Shown: one piece after another, positions 3,891 to 26,742 of the stretch
Position numbering within the stretch: position 1 is the stretch's first letter
How the letters are laid out: every line of letters starts with the position of its first letter
Source: Candidatus Faecalibacterium intestinigallinarum
GTDB taxonomy: Bacteria; Bacillota; Clostridia; Oscillospirales; Ruminococcaceae
Reading direction: 5' to 3'
NCBI GenBank assembly: GCA_019113345.1
Contig: DXHQ01000038.1
Location: 1 to 33,365, forward strand
Length of the DNA stretch: 33,365 nt
Program-made: the position numbers and the translations under genes
The notes under the pieces: model-generated
Seen by the model: only the letters and a program-made list of their open reading frames with translations
Databases searched by the model: none
What the model was told of the DNA's origin: nothing

Positions 3891-6182
3891 ATGGAAAAGA
3901 GCTTTGTGGGGTTTGGACCGGGCAGCAGCCCGCTGCCGGTGCGCAGCCCGGAGGGGACCGAGGCCCTCATCCAGGCGGGACGGGGCCGGGCGGCCCTGCG
4001 GCAGCTGTTTGGGCTGGCGGCGGGCCTTGCCGGCGGATGGGCGGTGCTGTACGGGCAGCTGTGTCCCCTGGGGCTGGGGCTGGTCCTGGGCCTGGGGGAG
4101 GACTGCTTTGCCGCCTGCGGGGCGGGGGCGGTGCTGGCGCTGCTGCTGCGGGGGCAGGGAGTGCGGGCCGTCTGCCTGATCTGCGCGGTGGGCGGGGCGG
4201 TGGCGGCCCGGTGGCTCTGGCCCCGGCGGTATCTGCCGGCGGCGCTGGCCGGGTGCGTCCTGCTGATGGGCAGCGCCTGGTGCTTCAAAGCCTACATCGG
4301 CGGGGACGGGCTGCTCTTTTCGGGGGCGGACGCGGTGCTGGCCGCCGGGATGGGATACCTGCTCCGCCGCTCCCCGCCCGAAAAGCAGGGGGCCGGGCGT
4401 CTGGTGCTGGTCCTCGGCGGGGCGGCGGCGCTGGGCAGCCTCTTTGCCGGGCCGGTCAGTCTGGGGCTGACGGCGTCGGTGGTCTACACCCTGGCGCTGG
4501 CCTGCCGGGGCAAGGGACAGGCGGCCCTCGGCGGGGCGGCCGCCGCCGCGGCCGGCCTCTGCTGCGCCGGGCCGGACCTCGCCTGCGGCGGGGTGGGGGT
4601 CTGTCTGGGCGCGGCCCTGGGACTGTTTGCCCAGGGGGACAAGCTGGTCTGCATCGCCTTTTACATGGGCGGGGCGCTGACGGGAATTTTGGCGGTCCAG
4701 CCGCCCGGAGCGGCCTTCGGTTATCTGGCGGCCCTCGGGGCGGGGGCCGCAGTCTGCCTGCTTGTGCCCCGCCGGCTGCTGCTGCGGGACGAAAGTCTGG
4801 CGCACGACCCCGCCGAGAGCGCCGGACGGCCGCAGCTGTCGGCGGCGGCCACCCGGCTGAACGCGGCGGCCGAGAGCCTTTCCAGCCTGGCCGACACCGT
4901 CAACAAGGTCTATGAGGGACTGCCCCGCCGGCAGGAGGGCTGGCGCTGGGTGACCGACACCGTCCACGACGGGCTGTGCGCCAACTGCGGCCGGCGGGAA
5001 GCCTGCTGGAAGGAGGAATACGCCGTCACCATGGCGGGCTTTGAGGCGATGCGCCCCATTCTGGAAGAGAAGCAGCAGCTGGAAGCGCAGGACCTGCCGG
5101 GGCAGCTGTCCCGCTGCATCCACCCGGCGGCGCTGTCCGGGGCGGCGACCCGGGCTTTCGCCCTCTACAAGAGCCGGCAGGAGGCCCGGGTCCACGCCGA
5201 GGCCATGCGCACCGCCCTGACCGAGCAGTACAGCGCGGTGGCCCAGGCCCTCAGCGCCCTGGGAGACCAGATCGGCAGCCCGGGCAGCCCCGAGCCCTAC
5301 AAGTCGGGGCGGGTGGCGGCCTTCTTCTCCTCGCTGGGGATGCCGCCTCTCGAGTGCGCCGTCACCCTGGACGACCTGGGCCGGACTCGGGCGGCCGTCA
5401 CTCTGCCGCGGGCGCGGTTCAGTCAGGGGGAGCTGTCGGCCCTGGCGGGGGAGGTGGGGCGGCTGTGCCGCCGCAGCTTCGAGACGCCCCAAAAGCTGAG
5501 CTGCAAGGGGGTGACCACCCTGCTGTTCACCGAAAAGCCGCTGCTGCGGGCCCTGTTCGGCTGGGCCGGCGCGGCGGCGCAGGGGGAGGTGTCGGGGGAC
5601 GCGGTGCAGCAGTTCTGCAGCCCCACCGCCGCCCAGATGATCCTCTGCGACGGGATGGGCACCGGCCGCCCCGCCGCGGTGGACGGCAACCTGGCCGCCG
5701 ACCTGACCGGCCGGCTGCTGCGGGCCGGCTTTGCCGCCGAGCTGGCGGCAAGGCTGGTCAACGTCGCCCTCGCCCTCAAAAGCGAAGAGGAGAGCGGGGC
5801 CACCCTCGACCTGCTCAGCGTCGACCTCTACACCGGGGCGGCCCGGATCTTCAAGGCGGGGGCGGCCCCCGGCTTCATCGTCCACGAGGGGCGCGCCCGG
5901 ACGGTGGGAGAGGCCGGGCTGCCGGTGGGGGTGCTGGGCGGGGTCAGCGGCCAGAGCAAGATGGTCCGGCTGGCGGCCGGGGACCTGGCCGTCCTCGTCT
6001 CGGACGGACTGCTGGTGGACGGCCCCGGCTGGGTCCTCAAACAGCTGGAGCTGTCGGCCGCCGGCGCCGACACCCCCGAACAGATCGCCCAGACCCTGGT
6101 CGAAACGGCCCGGGCCCGGGCGGACAAATCCGGCCGCCCCGACGACATCACCGCCGCCGTCCTCCGGCTGGAGCGGTACTGA
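3891..6182 (+). CDS. spoIIE: Stage II sporulation protein E, membrane-bound PP2C phosphatase
   Basis: A 763-residue SpoIIE, slightly shorter than the roughly 830 residues of Bacillus. In the family, SpoIIE sits at the polar septum and dephosphorylates SpoIIAA, which frees sigma-F in the forespore. The N-terminal half (residues 40-300) is a run of about ten Gly/Ala/Leu-rich membrane segments. A central regulatory region with cysteines (CANCGRREACW near residue 363) follows. The C-terminal PP2C domain carries the metal-binding motif LCDGMGTGR with D587, and the second Asp in VSDGLLVDG near residue 705. The start chosen is the ATG; an upstream TTG is in frame. Its ribosome site (GGGGG) is weak. 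It indicates that the organism has at least part of a sporulation programme. Confidence 0.93.
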   Translation: MEKSFVGFGPGSSPLPVRSPEGTEALIQAGRGRAALRQLFGLAAGLAGGWAVLYGQLCPLGLGLVLGLGEDCFAACGAGAVLALLLRGQGVRAVCLICAVGGAVAARWLWPRRYLPAALAGCVLLMGSAWCFKAYIGGDGLLFSGADAVLAAGMGYLLRRSPPEKQGAGRLVLVLGGAAALGSLFAGPVSLGLTASVVYTLALACRGKGQAALGGAAAAAAGLCCAGPDLACGGVGVCLGAALGLFAQGDKLVCIAFYMGGALTGILAVQPPGAAFGYLAALGAGAAVCLLVPRRLLLRDESLAHDPAESAGRPQLSAAATRLNAAAESLSSLADTVNKVYEGLPRRQEGWRWVTDTVHDGLCANCGRREACWKEEYAVTMAGFEAMRPILEEKQQLEAQDLPGQLSRCIHPAALSGAATRAFALYKSRQEARVHAEAMRTALTEQYSAVAQALSALGDQIGSPGSPEPYKSGRVAAFFSSLGMPPLECAVTLDDLGRTRAAVTLPRARFSQGELSALAGEVGRLCRRSFETPQKLSCKGVTTLLFTEKPLLRALFGWAGAAAQGEVSGDAVQQFCSPTAAQMILCDGMGTGRPAAVDGNLAADLTGRLLRAGFAAELAARLVNVALALKSEEESGATLDLLSVDLYTGAARIFKAGAAPGFIVHEGRARTVGEAGLPVGVLGGVSGQSKMVRLAAGDLAVLVSDGLLVDGPGWVLKQLELSAAGADTPEQIAQTLVETARARADKSGRPDDITAAVLRLERY

Positions 6183-6198
6183 AAAGCGCCCATAGAAA

Positions 6199-6389
6199 GT
6201 CCCAGTCAGCCGACATGTGCGGATGACTGGGACACCGACAGGGAAATTTGACGGAGAGAGTGTGCGCGCCGCGGCGCGTGCGCGGTTCGACGGCAAATTT
6301 TGTCAAAAGGGGGATACCAGGGGGAAAGAATTTCTGACGCGCGGATGCGCGCAGAAATTGGTCCCCCCTGGAGCGTGTCGAAGACACGC
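6199..6389 (+). repeat. Structured dispersed element, copy 1 (candidate structured RNA)
   Basis: This 191-nt stretch starts 17 bases after the spoIIE stop and has a second copy at 25746-25939. It folds into successive parts. Helix A is GTCCCAGTCA (6199-6208) with TGACTGGGAC (6224-6233), capped by a conserved CGACATGTGCG loop. Helix B is AAATTTG (6244-6250) with CAAATTT (6294-6300), enclosing the conserved ACGGAGAGA and GGTTCGACGG and an inner GC hairpin. Helix C is CCAGGGGG (6317-6324) with CCCCCTGG (6364-6371), enclosing an AATTTCT/AGAAATT arm. Last is the hairpin GCGTGTC-GAA-GACACGC (6373-6389). Helices covary with copy 2 while the loops are conserved. No protein family was recognised in either strand. 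Function unknown. Confidence 0.85.
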
Positions 6390-6390
6390 T

Positions 6391-6427
6391 AAAAAAGAGG
6401 GCCTGCCGTGTGTTGCGGCAGGCCCTC
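6391..6427 (-). terminator. Terminator of the 43-residue peptide gene
   Basis: GAGGGCCTGCCG (6397-6408) and CGGCAGGCCCTC (6416-6427) form a perfect 12-bp stem with a 7-base loop. On the minus strand the stem is followed directly by TTTTTT (6396-6391), 14 bases after the stop codon. On the plus strand a T-run also follows 6 bases later, so it may end transcripts from the spoIIE/element side as well. Confidence 0.9.
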
Positions 6428-22583: not shown

Positions 22584-24533
22584 ATGAACGACACGACCTA
22601 CACCCCGTACACCGAGTTCCTGCCTATCTGCCGCGCCGACATGGAGGCGCGCGGCTGGGATCAGCTGGACTTTGTGGTGGTGGGCGGCGACGCCTACGTC
22701 GACCACCCCAGCTTTGGCACCGCCATCATCAGCCGCCTGCTGGAAGCCGAGGGCTACCGGGTGGGGGTGCTGGCCCAGCCCCGCTACACCGACTGCGAGG
22801 ACTTCAAGCGGTTCGGCAAACCGAAGTACGGCTTTTTCATCGGCGGCGGCAACGTGGACAGCATGGTCAGCCACTACTCGGTGGCCAAGATCCCCCGGGC
22901 CGAGGACGAATATTCCCCCGGCGGCAGGGCCGGCGCCCGGCCCGACCGCAGCGCCACCGTTTACACCCGGCTGGCCAAGCAGGCATACCCCGACCTGCCG
23001 GTCGTTCTGGGCGGGCTGGAGGCCTCGCTGCGGCGGTTTGCCCATTATGACTACTGGCTGGACACCGTCCTGCCCAGCATCGCCGAGGACGCCGGCTGCG
23101 ACCTCATCAGCTTCGGGATGGGGGAGCACCAGACCGTCGAGATCGCCCGCCGGCTGGCGGCCGGGGAGCCCATTGAGAGCATCACCGACGTGGCCGGCAC
23201 CTGTTACATGACCGACTTTGAGCATCTGCCCGAGCGGTACGTCGAGTGCGCCGGCTACAAAAAGGTGGCCGCGGACAAGGTGGCCTACGCCAAAGCCTGC
23301 CGCATCCAGATGGACAACCAGGACGTGGTCAGCGGGCAGATCATCGTCCAGAAGCAGAGCGAAAAGTATCTGGTCCAGAACCTGCCCGCCAAACCGCTGG
23401 TCCGCTGGGAGCTGGACAAGGTCTACGCCCTGCCCTATACCCGCCGCTACCACCCCATCTATGAGCCGATGGGCGGGGTGCCCGCCATCCGGGAGGTGCA
23501 GTTCTCCATCATCCAGAACCGCGGGTGCTTCGGCGGGTGCAACTTCTGCGCCATCCAGCTGCACCAGGGCCGGCGGGTGACCAGCCGCAGCGCCGACAGC
23601 ATCGTGGCCGAGGCCGAGCGGATGACCCACGAGCCCGATTTCAAGGGCTACATCCACGACGTGGGCGGCCCGACCGCCAATTTCCGCTTCCCGTCCTGCG
23701 GGCAGCAGATGAAAAAGGGGATGTGCACCGGAGGCAAGCACTGCCTGGCCCCGCAGCCCTGCCCCCACCTGATCGTCGACCACAAGGATTACCTCAATAT
23801 CCTGCGCCGGCTGCGGGCGCTGCCGGGGGTCAAAAAGGTGTTTGTCCGCAGCGGCATCCGCTTCGACTACCTGATGGCCGACCCCGACGAGACCTTCTTC
23901 CAGGAGCTGGTGGAGCACCACGTCTCGGGCCAGCTCAAGGTGGCCCCCGAGCACTGCGCCCCCAACACCCTGGCCTATATGGGCAAGCCGCCCATCGAGG
24001 TCTTTAACCGGTTCAAGGACAAGTTCTACGAGCTCAGCCGCAGGGCGGGCAAAAAACAGTATCTGGTGCCCTACCTGATGTCCAGCCACCCGGGCAGCAC
24101 CTTGAAGGACGCGGTCTATCTGGCCGAGTACCTCTACAAAAACCATATGCGCCCCGAGCAGGTGCAAGATTTTTACCCGACGCCGGGCACCGTCAGCACC
24201 TGTATGTTCTACACCGGCCTTGACCCCTACACCCTCAAGCCGGTCTTTGTGGAAAAGACCGCCGAGGGCAAGGCGCTGCAGCGGGCGCTGCTGCAATACT
24301 ACGAGCCCCGCAACGCCGAAAAGGTGGTCAAGGCCCTCAAGATGACCCACCGGGAGGACCTGATCCCCCTGCTGGTGCCGGCCGCCGGCCGCCGCGCCGT
24401 GCAGCGGACCGCCCGCAAGGCCGCTGCCCGGGACGTCACCATCCATTCGGACGGCAGCTACACCGTCCACCCGGGGGCGCGCTTTGCCCCCCGCACCAAA
24501 CCAAACAAAAAGAAGGGGAACAAGAGCAAATGA
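22584..24533 (+). CDS. YgiQ family radical SAM protein
   Basis: A 649-residue radical SAM enzyme of the YgiQ family. The N-terminal domain (residues 1-280) has the typical DFVVVGGDAYVDHPSFG and ISRLLEAEGY. The Fe-S/SAM motif is RGCFGGCNFCAI near residue 313, with three cysteines in a CxxxCxxC pattern. The C-terminal part shows VRSGIRFDYL and QDFYPTPGTVSTCMFYTG, both usual for the family; the end is Lys/Arg-rich. The biochemical reaction of YgiQ is not known. The gene follows ftsK after 12 bases with the ribosome site GGGAGGAG, and overlaps the next gene by 4 bases, so the three are co-transcribed. Confidence 0.93.
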   Translation: MNDTTYTPYTEFLPICRADMEARGWDQLDFVVVGGDAYVDHPSFGTAIISRLLEAEGYRVGVLAQPRYTDCEDFKRFGKPKYGFFIGGGNVDSMVSHYSVAKIPRAEDEYSPGGRAGARPDRSATVYTRLAKQAYPDLPVVLGGLEASLRRFAHYDYWLDTVLPSIAEDAGCDLISFGMGEHQTVEIARRLAAGEPIESITDVAGTCYMTDFEHLPERYVECAGYKKVAADKVAYAKACRIQMDNQDVVSGQIIVQKQSEKYLVQNLPAKPLVRWELDKVYALPYTRRYHPIYEPMGGVPAIREVQFSIIQNRGCFGGCNFCAIQLHQGRRVTSRSADSIVAEAERMTHEPDFKGYIHDVGGPTANFRFPSCGQQMKKGMCTGGKHCLAPQPCPHLIVDHKDYLNILRRLRALPGVKKVFVRSGIRFDYLMADPDETFFQELVEHHVSGQLKVAPEHCAPNTLAYMGKPPIEVFNRFKDKFYELSRRAGKKQYLVPYLMSSHPGSTLKDAVYLAEYLYKNHMRPEQVQDFYPTPGTVSTCMFYTGLDPYTLKPVFVEKTAEGKALQRALLQYYEPRNAEKVVKALKMTHREDLIPLLVPAAGRRAVQRTARKAAARDVTIHSDGSYTVHPGARFAPRTKPNKKKGNKSK

Positions 24534-25678
24534 AGGAACACCGCAATCATACAGCCCTGACCGCGCTGCTGCGCCGGGTCGCTGCGCTGGCGCTGGCCGC
24601 CGCGCTGGTTCTCAGCCTGGCCGGCTGTCAGGACCTGCTGACTGCCCTGCAGCAGGCGCAGCAGCCCGCCGCCAGCACCGCGCAGCCCGTTCAACCCGCC
24701 GAGGGCGGCGGCTTTTCGATCGACTTCATCGACGTGGGACAGGCCCTGAGCGTCCTGGTGACCTGCGACGGGCAGAGTATGCTCTACGACGGCGGCAACG
24801 TCGAGGACGGCAGTCTGGTCGTCTCCTACCTGCAAAATAAAGGCGTCACCCGGCTGGAGTACGTCTTTTGCAGCCACGCCCACGAGGACCACGTCGGGGG
24901 CCTCGCGGCGGTGATGGCCAAGTTCCCGGCGGGGCACGCCTACGCGCCGGTGACCACGGCCGACACCCAGTGCTTTCAGGACTTTGTCAGCTACACCCAG
25001 CAGCAGGGGCTGACCCTCGAGGTGCCCGCCGTCGGCGCCGTCTGGCAGCTGGGCAGCGCCACTGTCCAGTTGCTGGGCCCGGTGACGCAGTATGACGACA
25101 CCAACGACACCTCTCTGGTGCTGCGGATCGACTACGGCGAGACCAGCTTCCTCCTGACCGGCGACATGGAGCAGGACGCCGAGGACGACCTGGTCGCCTC
25201 GGGCGCGCCCCTCGATGTGGACGTGCTGCAGGTGGGCCACCACGGCAGCGAGACGTCCACCGGCTACGTCTTTCTGAACGCCGTTCTGCCCGAGGTGGGG
25301 GTCATTTCGGTGGGGGAGGGGAACAGCTACGGCCACCCCCATGAGGCGGCCCTCAGCCGCCTGCGGGACGCCGGGGTGGACGTCTGGCGCACCGACCTTG
25401 CGGGCACCGTCCGCATCCTCTCGGACGGGGTCAACTACACCGTCGCCGCCGACAGGGACGTTGCGCCCGAGCAGCAGAACCCCACCCTCTCGGACGGCAG
25501 CGGCCAGCAGGCGTCCAGCCAGCCGGCCATTCAGGCTTACATCGGCAACGTCAACTCGAAAAAATTCCACCTGCCCAGCTGTCCCAACCTGCCCGACCCG
25601 TCCAACCAGACCCTCTTTTCCAGCTACGAGCAGGCCGTCGAGGCCGGCTATACCCCCTGCGGGAACTGTCTGGGCTGA
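24530..25678 (+). CDS. ComEC-like metallo-beta-lactamase lipoprotein with C-terminal Zn-binding motif
   Basis: A 382-residue exported hydrolase. The lipobox LSLAGC gives a lipid anchor near residue 25. The metallo-beta-lactamase domain begins SIDFIDVGQALSVLV and has the metal motif SHAHEDHVGG (H116, H118, D120, H121), then TGDME and VGHHGS, matching the C-terminal domain of ComEC and free-standing relatives. A separate C-terminal module, IGNVNSKKFHLPSC... TPCGNCLG, is the Ada-like metal-binding repeat often found on such proteins. ComEC-type domains are thought to degrade one DNA strand or other phosphodiesters; no membrane channel is present here, so DNA uptake is not implied. It overlaps the YgiQ gene by 4 bases. 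Confidence 0.9.
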   Translation: MKEHRNHTALTALLRRVAALALAAALVLSLAGCQDLLTALQQAQQPAASTAQPVQPAEGGGFSIDFIDVGQALSVLVTCDGQSMLYDGGNVEDGSLVVSYLQNKGVTRLEYVFCSHAHEDHVGGLAAVMAKFPAGHAYAPVTTADTQCFQDFVSYTQQQGLTLEVPAVGAVWQLGSATVQLLGPVTQYDDTNDTSLVLRIDYGETSFLLTGDMEQDAEDDLVASGAPLDVDVLQVGHHGSETSTGYVFLNAVLPEVGVISVGEGNSYGHPHEAALSRLRDAGVDVWRTDLAGTVRILSDGVNYTVAADRDVAPEQQNPTLSDGSGQQASSQPAIQAYIGNVNSKKFHLPSCPNLPDPSNQTLFSSYEQAVEAGYTPCGNCLG

Positions 25679-25745
25679 CCTCTCTGTGTAAAAGTCCTGC
25701 CTGGATTTGGAGAACCCTCTGAAAGAAAGACTGACTTTTCAAAAC
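25679..25745 (+). other. Spacer before element copy 2, with a duplicated helix arm
   Basis: No gene or terminator is seen here. GTCCTGCCTG (25694-25703) nearly repeats the 5' arm of helix A of the following element (GTCCCGCCTG, 25746-25755) and could pair instead of it with the 3' arm at 25771-25780. AAAAGTC (25690-25696) and GACTTTT (25733-25739) are also complementary and would bracket the spacer. Confidence 0.45.
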
Positions 25746-25939
25746 GTCCCGCCTGGACGACATGTGCGTACAGGCGGGACACCTCCAGGGAAATTTGACG
25801 GAGAGAGTGTGCGAGCCCGCAGGGCGAGTGCGCGGTTCGACGGCAAATTTTGTCCCCAGGGGGATACTAGGGGGAAGGAATTTCTGTCCCGCAACTGCGG
25901 GCAGAAATGGGTTCCCCCTAGAGCGTGTCGGAGACACGC
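25746..25939 (+). repeat. Structured dispersed element, copy 2 (candidate structured RNA)
   Basis: This is the second copy of the element at 6199-6389, in the same orientation and again downstream of a plus-strand gene. Helix A is GTCCCGCCTG (25746-25755) with CAGGCGGGAC (25771-25780), capped by CGACATGTGCG. Helix B is AAATTTG (25791-25797) with CAAATTT (25844-25850), with the same ACGGAGAGA and GGTTCGACGG inside. Helix C is CTAGGGGG (25867-25874) with CCCCCTAG (25914-25921), enclosing AATTTCT and a CCCGC/GCGGG hairpin. The terminal hairpin GCGTGTC-GGA-GACACGC is at 25923-25939. Five consecutive pairs in helix A differ from copy 1 with pairing kept. Unlike copy 1, no terminator follows. Confidence 0.85.
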
Positions 25940-25955
25940 AGGTCTATGCCCTAGA

Positions 25956-26058: not shown

Positions 26059-26742
26059 ATGATCGAAACATTGCTGCAAAACCGCACCGTACAGGTGCTG
26101 ATCGAATCCTTTCCCCGCATTCTGCTGCCGGGACTGGCCGTCACCATCCCGCTGACGGTGCTCTCGTTTGCGTTTGCGCTGGTCATCGCGGCGGCGGTGG
26201 CTCTGGTGCAGTATGCGCAGGTGCCGGTGCTGCGCCAGCTGGCCCGGCTGTATATCTGGGTGGTGCGCGGCACCCCGCTGCTGGTCCAGCTCTTTATCAT
26301 CTTTTACGGGCTGCCCAGCATGGGCATCGTGCTGGACGCTTTCCCCACCGCGGTGATCGCCTTCTCCATCAACGAGGGGGCCTACTGCGCCGAGACCATC
26401 CGCGCCGCGCTGGAATCGGTGCCCGCCGGTCAGCTGGAGGCGGGCTACTGCGTCGGGATGTCCTGGTGGCAGGTCATGCGGCGGATCATCCTGCCGCAGG
26501 CGCTGCGCACCGCCTTCCCGCCGTTGTCCAACTCCCTGATCGGCATGGTCAAGGACACCTCCCTCGCGGCCAACATCACCGTCGCCGAGATGTTCATGGC
26601 GACCCAGCGGGTGGCGTCCTACACCTACCAGTTCCTGCCGGTCTACTGCGAGCTGGCCGTCATCTACCTGATGTTCTGCACCGTGCTGACCTGGGTGCAG
26701 AAGCGGGGCGAAAAATATTTGAACGCCCATGGTTTCAACTGA
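26059..26742 (+). CDS. Amino-acid ABC transporter permease
   Basis: A 227-residue permease of the HisM/GlnP family with about five membrane segments. The cytoplasmic EAA loop reads ALESVPAGQLEAGYCVGMSWWQ followed by RRIILPQALRTAFPPLSNS, the ATPase contact. VRGTPLLVQLFIIFYGLP is the standard family segment. It is shorter at the C-terminus than the permease at 160-984 and only moderately similar, so the two operons are not a recent duplication. The ribosome site is poor (AAAAGGCTGAGT). It is the first gene of a permease, ATPase, binding-protein operon, the reverse order of the left-hand system. Confidence 0.92.
   Translation: MIETLLQNRTVQVLIESFPRILLPGLAVTIPLTVLSFAFALVIAAAVALVQYAQVPVLRQLARLYIWVVRGTPLLVQLFIIFYGLPSMGIVLDAFPTAVIAFSINEGAYCAETIRAALESVPAGQLEAGYCVGMSWWQVMRRIILPQALRTAFPPLSNSLIGMVKDTSLAANITVAEMFMATQRVASYTYQFLPVYCELAVIYLMFCTVLTWVQKRGEKYLNAHGFN

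Follow-up and report, generated by a model that had tools for sequence, protein, structure and literature searches.

The window, that is, the whole stretch of 33,365 nucleotides analysed here, is contig C121 of a 2.21-Mb assembly in 130 contigs from the genus Faecalibacterium. Two copies of a structured element had been described in it, at 6199-6389 and 25746-25939, and both were found at these positions. The preliminary description had also proposed a covariance-model search. Such a model, R1, was built from 30 copies of the window's genome and many further copies were retrieved in this genome and in the genus. In the window itself, scanned with R1 at an E-value of 1e-8 or better, no third copy was detected. 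The genes listed below come from a custom gene caller, and the identity of a protein is confirmed only where a Pfam or protein match names it.

3891-6182, + strand: gene upstream of copy 1, with SpoIIE domains (Pfam PF07228 and PF19732; own gene caller)
6196-6394, + strand: element copy 1 (R1 match at 6196-6372, 185.4 bits, plus the 3' terminal hairpin)
6199-6233, + strand: copy 1, hairpin 1, with the heptaloop ACATGTG at 6213-6219; covarying helix 1, loop class kept across families
6243-6301, + strand: copy 1, hairpin 2; the core strands GTGTGC (6260-6265) and GTGCGC (6278-6283) form a GU-wobble helix
6317-6371, + strand: copy 1, hairpin 3 (helices 3 and 4 of the 30-copy alignment)
6373-6389, + strand: copy 1, 3' terminal hairpin, GCGTGTC..GACACGC, which holds the 3' inverted-repeat end in other copies
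24530-25678, + strand: gene upstream of copy 2, metallo-beta-lactamase superfamily with an Ada zinc-binding domain (Pfam PF00753 and PF02805)
25743-25942, + strand: element copy 2 (R1 match at 25743-25922, 192.3 bits)
25746-25780, + strand: copy 2, hairpin 1, with the heptaloop ACATGTG at 25760-25766
25790-25851, + strand: copy 2, hairpin 2 with the conserved core
25867-25921, + strand: copy 2, hairpin 3
25923-25939, + strand: copy 2, 3' terminal hairpin
26059-26742, + strand: gene downstream of copy 2, ABC transporter inner-membrane component (Pfam PF00528)

The 3' terminal hairpin was delimited from the 3' ends and duplication boundaries common to other copies. Folding of the two copies gave z-scores of -8.55 (6196-6394) and -9.54 (25740-25942), each against 200 dinucleotide shuffles. 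The base-pair changes reported between them were all recovered: the five-pair switch of helix A (AGTCA/TGACT versus GCCTG/CAGGC), the C-G to A-T change above a G-A mismatch and, in the third hairpin, the C-G to T-A change and the G-C to C-G change of the inner arm. The conserved stretches had been presented as unpaired, which is correct only in part, as ACGGAGAGAGTGTGC and GGTTCGACGG for the most part pair with each other to form helix 2, which has purine internal loops. Comparison of the flanks revealed no duplication above background at either copy, so that the window copies look old, and the inverted-repeat end is lost from their 5' ends.

Distribution and fold of the element

In the window's own genome, R1 scored at least 150 bits at 50 sites and 69-135 bits at 15 others, where the copy is shorter or diverged, i.e. 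about 65 copies (counted by hand from 113 rows, the remaining rows being opposite-strand or partial matches). Copies lie at the ends of contigs C26, C30, C75, C88 and C106. As such a repeat may break the assembly, the copy number is probably underestimated. Long variants with a GC-rich extra domain of about 100-130 nt between hairpins 2 and 3 were seen at L117:3289-3576, L124:3063-3354, L177:1170-1459 and L182:912-1201 and on the own-genome contigs C29, C6, C63, C71 and C92, and the stretch C92:3648-4048 resembles a tandem array of modules.

Outside this genome, R1 identified 11 carriers among 61 genomes, all of them within the 31 examined members of the window's genus; the eight single-contig genomes of that genus gave no R1 match. 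A pattern scan of named genomes matched at least 92 stretches, 80 of the 92 being listed; the matches listed include Faecalibacterium gallistercoris, F. faecigallinarum, sp. An121, sp. An122 and an uncultured Faecalibacterium, and also the Oscillospiraceae MAG Lapin-012 and a short contig of Pullilachnospira. In Lapin-012 the copies were recovered by the pattern and not by R1; they resemble the others in loop class, in the hairpin 2 core and at the element ends. The Pullilachnospira copy (L118:765-945, 206 bits) may reflect a binning error or a transfer; its contig, of 3.3 kb, is classified as Candidatus Pullilachnospira stercoravium. One exact-pattern scan of viral_contigs gave no match.

With the core model R2, multi-copy families were found in three genomes (G188, G221 and G370) of another family of the order, here called f14, in a search of 394 genomes. 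No carrier except the own genome was obtained with R2 in 391 genomes drawn from the class. The two-hairpin model R3, built from 20 sequences from which Faecalibacterium was excluded, matched 202 of 400 f14 genomes, belonging to 70 of 106 genera. These carriers are mostly multi-copy, often with at least 12 scored R3 matches, a minority having a single match. Of 398 genomes drawn from the phylum, two were carriers by R3, the own genome and G049 of f14; since R2 had missed G049, absence by R2 is weak evidence.

The pairing of the stems was analyzed in three alignments. In the 30-copy alignment of the window's genome (A1), 24 of 59 pairs had changed on both sides, a count that does not represent independent events because copies of the same genome are related, and 98.4% of the cells were paired. 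The covariation score was 0.287 against 0.120 in shuffled alignments, none of 500 being as high, and structures slid along the alignment reached at most 0.055. In the f14 alignment A7 (95 R3 matches, 93 of them distinct), both-sided changes were present in 15 of 19 pairs, 98.6% of the cells were paired and none of 500 shuffles was as high; the A7 loci were picked among the best-scoring ones, and pairing is favoured by the fitting of this alignment to the model. For A1 and A7 this held for every measure, whereas in the 20-sequence alignment A6 two of the five covariation measures were reached by 19 and 63 of 500 shuffles. Between families the stems have little sequence in common and the loop and core are retained. 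An artefact of recent copying is ruled out, as the stems differ between copies and between families.

Hairpin 1 is common to the families and has a seven-base loop RCRUGNR. In 95 f14 sequences the end bases of this heptaloop are A..G in 58 cases, G..A in 36 and G..G in one, and this swap follows the pattern that would be expected of a purine-purine pair. A linker joins hairpin 1 to hairpin 2, in whose core GUGUGC pairs with GUGC(G/A)(C/U) via conserved wobbles, usually beside a CGAG/CGAG tandem G.A as judged by eye. A pseudoknot between loop 1 and the linker was considered and found no support by eye because the linker varies. Downstream there is usually a hairpin 3; where the ends are intact, the structure closes with one more hairpin, in which the 3' end is contained. 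In many f14 copies an extra hairpin was seen by eye 5' of hairpin 1. In eight G188 loci (L294, L296-L299 and L301-L303) a stem of the GGCCCC/GGGGCC type replaces the tandem G.A and the wobble helix is kept.

The direction of the wobbles was used to compare the two strands. In hairpin 1 of the f14 set, 62 GU cells (most at one pair) were counted against one AC cell, and the outer stem of hairpin 2 gave two against one. In 101 Faecalibacterium copies, where the pairs are mostly Watson-Crick, there were 93 GU against 29 AC cells, 28 of the GU cells being located in two pairs beside the core; in the stems common to the predictions of both strands in the first 30 copies, the gap was small (20 versus 13). 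Furthermore, the plus strand folds with a lower energy than its complement in 101 of 101 Faecalibacterium copies and in 86 of 93 f14 copies. The strand given in the preliminary description is the selected, folded one, and its proposal of selection on this strand, most likely as RNA, is in agreement with covariation, wobble asymmetry and folding energy alike. As G.T wobbles also occur in single-stranded DNA, these data identify the folded strand and make RNA likely, not certain. An RNA of the reverse strand, the strand on which the U-tract and the host gene run, is disfavoured as the functional form by wobble direction and folding.

The view that the element belongs to no known RNA family was upheld by a scan of Rfam 15 at gathering threshold, which gave no match in the window or in 16 further loci. 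Known Rfam families were rejected as its identity, nothing having reached the gathering level in the window or in those 16 loci. In a scan of 10 other loci, the only match was an unrelated malK-I RNA (RF03069, 147 bits) at L151:2527-2711 on the minus strand, near a Lapin-012 copy. At a lax threshold only matches with chance-level E-values were obtained, far under the family thresholds. HEARO, or omega RNA, whose model was presumably among the families scanned, had no match at gathering level in the all-family scans. A literature search, with subscription journals, bioRxiv and supplements outside its scope, found no paper on this element. Thousands of microbiome RNAs have been predicted (PMC8040213), and an earlier unnamed prediction of the element may exist, for example in that work.

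Transposon ends, target duplications and gene context

The element measures about 200-270 nt, about 200 nt in Faecalibacterium, which leaves no room for a transposase gene. Young copies have ends of the CAGNNTGTCAAA type, flanked by duplications of about 20-40 nt of a palindromic terminator, and their inverted ends are of the CAGNNTGTC type. In Faecalibacterium the inverted repeats are CAGACTGTC(A/G)AAA at the 5' end and CAGCGTGTCGCAAA as the reverse complement of the 3' end; in G221 they are CAGTCTGTCAAA and CAGCGTGTCGAA. These ends are imperfect and are lost in many copies. The 5' end of young copies (for example L024 and L242) has the reverse complement TTTTTTGACA, which resembles the -35 box of an outward promoter.

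Duplications at or above the 99% null level were found in 11 of 88 Faecalibacterium copies, the other 77 having none; the 88 were retained from 150 matches after duplicates, matches outside 160-200 nt and those too near a contig end had been left out. The 99% null level was 12 for Faecalibacterium and 13 for a 22-locus f14 set. Nine of 11 Lapin-012 copies scored at least 13.5 and 21 of 23 G221 copies (23 fetched of 26 found) at least 17.5, the scores of these two sets having no null of their own. Nearly all duplicated stretches are palindromes resembling intrinsic terminators, and the element ends adjoin them. The 23 G188 copies showed no clear duplication, the best score being a marginal 13.5 at a hairpin, and only two of the 22 f14 loci equalled or exceeded the null maximum, 20 being without duplication. 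In L338 (G049), a copy at about 1501-1576 lies between direct duplications of about 26 nt derived from the 3' end of a coding gene and not from a hairpin.

The element is thus short and devoid of a transposase gene, with terminal inverted repeats and target-site duplication, as in miniature elements of the MITE type. It belongs to the class of non-autonomous transposons and has an internally selected fold, and this identity is well supported. The argument raised earlier against a transposon fails, since relatives have transposon ends and target duplications. The preliminary description had regarded such ends and duplications, combined with the absence of a transcript, as a sign against its RNA reading; the ends and duplications are present in the relatives, yet strong covariation is present too. 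Its choice between RNA and transposon is wrong, as the element is both.

The window copies had been said to share one orientation and to follow unrelated genes. The neighbours are indeed unrelated, but the orientation is not random. Among 102 unique Faecalibacterium copies, 85 had genes on both sides and 75 had them within 300 nt; in 68 of these 75, the gene on the 3' side runs towards the element. The same was observed in 11 of 11 Lapin-012 copies, 22 of 23 in G221, 4 of 4 in G370, 19 of the 21 G188 copies with a called gene (of 23) and 81 of the 93 f14 copies with a called gene (of 95), the last set overlapping some of the G188, G221 and G370 copies. Convergent sites being symmetric, the fair comparison is that of antisense with sense copies at codirectional sites. 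It gave 29 to 7 in Faecalibacterium (p 0.0003), 13 to 1 in the locus analysis that comprised G221 (p 0.002) and 48 to 9 in f14 (p 1.5e-7), whereas G188 gave 2 to 2. Relative to the gene at whose 3' end they lie, most copies are antisense, and at antisense codirectional sites the folded strand is not transcribed by the neighbour genes. This polarity could come either from polar insertion by the transposase or from selection against sense insertions.

In Faecalibacterium, hairpin 1 is preceded by an A-tract, which reads as a U-tract when the host gene's strand is considered. Among convergent copies 34 of 39 have this tract, as do 11 of 16 antisense copies whose next gene is at least 60 nt away, against 4 of 13 whose next operon gene is closer than 60 nt (Fisher p 0.0007). 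This distribution suggests that the Faecalibacterium element has also been adapted to terminate transcription of the host gene.

Persistence was followed at three pairs of f14 sites that are orthologous by both flanking genes: murT/gatD and nrdD/nrdG, each within a genus, and rsh/dtd, in two genera (nrdG being so named from a radical-SAM match next to the NRDD gene). The rsh/dtd pair showed five both-sided and two one-sided changes and no unpaired position, with flanks about 69% identical. The murT/gatD pair had one both-sided change and a loop swap; the nrdD/nrdG pair had no both-sided change, one one-sided change and one pair unpaired in a copy. By eye, orthologous Faecalibacterium copies mostly retain pairing, although not in every case; L074, for instance, has a new mismatch. 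Some orthologous copies, for example L029 and L166, differ block-wise, and as such differences resemble gene conversion they could mimic selection in place.

To relate the element to a mobiliser, its ends were compared with those of transposase-bearing IS1182-family elements of the same order. The CAGNNTGTC end pair was present in 6 of 31 distinct IS1182-bearing loci (L196, L312/L416, L202, L414, L418 and L436), and the pattern used detected no such pair in the other 25. The IS1182 elements of L196 (G049) and L312 (G188; the same element as L416) carry near-perfect palindromic duplications of 31-32 bp, and both genomes contain the RNA element as well as matching IS1182 elements. In L196 the palindromic flanks are identical except for an inverted loop, AGAT versus ATCT, so that they may not be a plain direct duplication. 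The RNA core was found in none of the 31 distinct loci and in none of the other IS1182 loci examined, within the stretches covered, and an autonomous RNA-bearing IS1182 was thus not found there. What is weakened by this absence is solely the idea that the MITE arose from such an IS by internal deletion.

The own genome contains one weak IS1182 fragment, Lapin-012 has fragments only and G221 has a remnant in which a single end matches. Six IS1182 loci passed the cut-off in five carriers of the window's genus: those of G004, G013 and G021 have different inverted ends, and no inverted ends were identified for those of G002 and G016. G020 (L202) is a member of the genus with matching IS1182 ends and carries no element.

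IS1272 is a member of the IS1182 family. Inverted repeats are its reported targets, and one route in the model proposed for it would duplicate the stem-loop as a whole (PMC5678879). The inverted ends, the inverted-repeat targets and this route are features that IS1182/IS1272 and the present element have in common. However, IS1272 was reported to have no duplications, the stem-loop being replaced (PMC5678879), and the element differs from IS1272 in having no transposase gene, in its length of about 200-270 nt and in its RNA fold. By its ends and targets, the element looks like a non-autonomous IS1182-type element of the MITE class. With fair but indirect support, we infer that IS1182-type transposases would move it into terminator hairpins.

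Possible role of the fold

The reading that we prefer, to which we give a probability of roughly 55%, is that of an IS1182-type MITE whose interior would be a conserved structured RNA bound through the heptaloop and the wobble helix. An IS1182-family transposase acting in trans would cut at the feet of the extruded terminator hairpin; a cut at this place should duplicate the whole palindrome and make the insertion mild for the host. Transcription of the plus strand would start at an outside promoter or come from a convergent neighbour, in whose 3' UTR it would lie, and the transcript would fold into a scaffold. The heptaloop, with its A.G/G.A closing pair, and the wobble helix would be bound by a protein, this binding being kept by selection for the element, for the host or for both. 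An action of the fold as RNA, with a protein that recognises the loop and the wobble core, is proposed only tentatively.

The other explanations address the role of the fold, and not all of them exclude mobility. The hairpins could form a self-insulating 3'-end module that only replaces or strengthens the invaded terminator: hairpin 1 and its U-tract would end transcription on the strand of the host gene, copies would be tolerated and domesticated, and no sequence-specific RNA partner would be needed. The A-tract distribution by gene context is the best support for this explanation, which also agrees with a hand count in which 27 of 36 copies with an opposite-strand 3' gene and no recognised end hairpin lie at most 25 nt from the gene end. 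It leaves unexplained the conserved heptaloop, the wobble core and the better folding of the opposite strand; moreover, G221 and many f14 copies have, by eye, no U-tract after hairpin 1 on the gene strand. We regard it as possible, with a probability well under even. Selection could also act on folded single-stranded DNA, the hairpins being recognised by an enzyme while the element transposes or is replicated, in the manner of attC sites or IS200/IS605 ends. The restriction of the fold to one strand, the conserved loops with free stems, the strong polarity to genes and the palindromic nature of the target duplications themselves are compatible with such a role. The ends and duplications nevertheless fit a DDE-type family, in which internal hairpins are not required, and IS1182 elements with such ends exist without the fold; in addition, motifs such as tandem G.A and wobbles are characteristic of RNA. 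Selection of folded DNA is considered unlikely.

Two further explanations are given very little weight. If the element were an ordinary MITE with a functionless interior, the fold would derive from ancestral palindromes and the covariation from copying and gene conversion within subfamilies; related copies do inflate covariation counts, and orthologous copies do differ block-wise. This reading is strongly disfavoured by stems that share little sequence between families while loop and core are kept in 70 genera, and by a wobble asymmetry unexpected from neutral palindromes. Equally improbable is a guide-like RNA, i.e. one that would serve as guide scaffold to a nuclease or transposase from another locus, in the way that HEARO serves IscB. 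HEARO is the precedent, and the present element is a structured RNA carried in many copies by mobile DNA, next to variable flanks, but no Rfam family matches, the examined IS1182 loci carry no such RNA and the long target duplications are unlike IS200/IS605-type insertion.

Relation to known systems and significance

Structured RNAs, MITEs and unions of RNA and transposon such as IStrons and HEARO are already known kinds. MITEs are usually defined by their ends. Bacterial MITEs, reviewed in PMC10969869, are described as short, non-autonomous elements with many intergenic copies, inverted ends and target duplication, like the present one, whose interior differs in being a covarying fold conserved over about 70 genera. 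In IStrons, a structured RNA is united with a DNA transposon and is said to render insertions harmless; they carry a self-splicing group I intron (PMC4227781), whereas the element has no Rfam intron match. BOX and RUP of pneumococcus (PMC3049150) and the bcr1-type repeats of Bacillus cereus are interspersed intergenic repeats with a predicted structure and mobile-element traits, and differ from the element in host, sequence and ends. We know of no comparable conservation of loop and core across genera in bcr1 or BOX/RUP. HEARO, the omega RNA of IscB, is a structured RNA with many copies on mobile DNA, has non-autonomous forms and is included in Rfam; the present element differs by its lack of an Rfam match, its IS1182-type ends and its long duplications. 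REP/RAYT systems consist of tagged, short hairpins and a Y1 transposase gene, and long palindromic duplications do not fit them. The fold, its breadth and its carriage by IS1182-type elements appear to be new, having been found neither in Rfam 15 nor in the papers searched.

Present in about half of the sampled f14 genomes, often in at least 10 copies, the element could rank among the more abundant uncatalogued RNA elements of that family. It is conceivable, though doubtful, that a new class of ribonucleoprotein has been spread by a terminator-seeking transposon. Genomes would then hold dozens of antisense copies of one protein-binding fold, placed between genes or after them (murT/gatD, rsh/dtd, nrdD/nrdG). 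Those retained at fixed operon sites would make up a regulatory network spanning the genome, and the fold might aid the choice of terminator and orientation. Faecalibacterium sp. An121 and An122, which we take to be cultured isolates, carry the element, so that its expression, binding partners and mobility are directly testable. The question raised is why a transposon that needs only its ends should keep an RNA fold through 70 genera.
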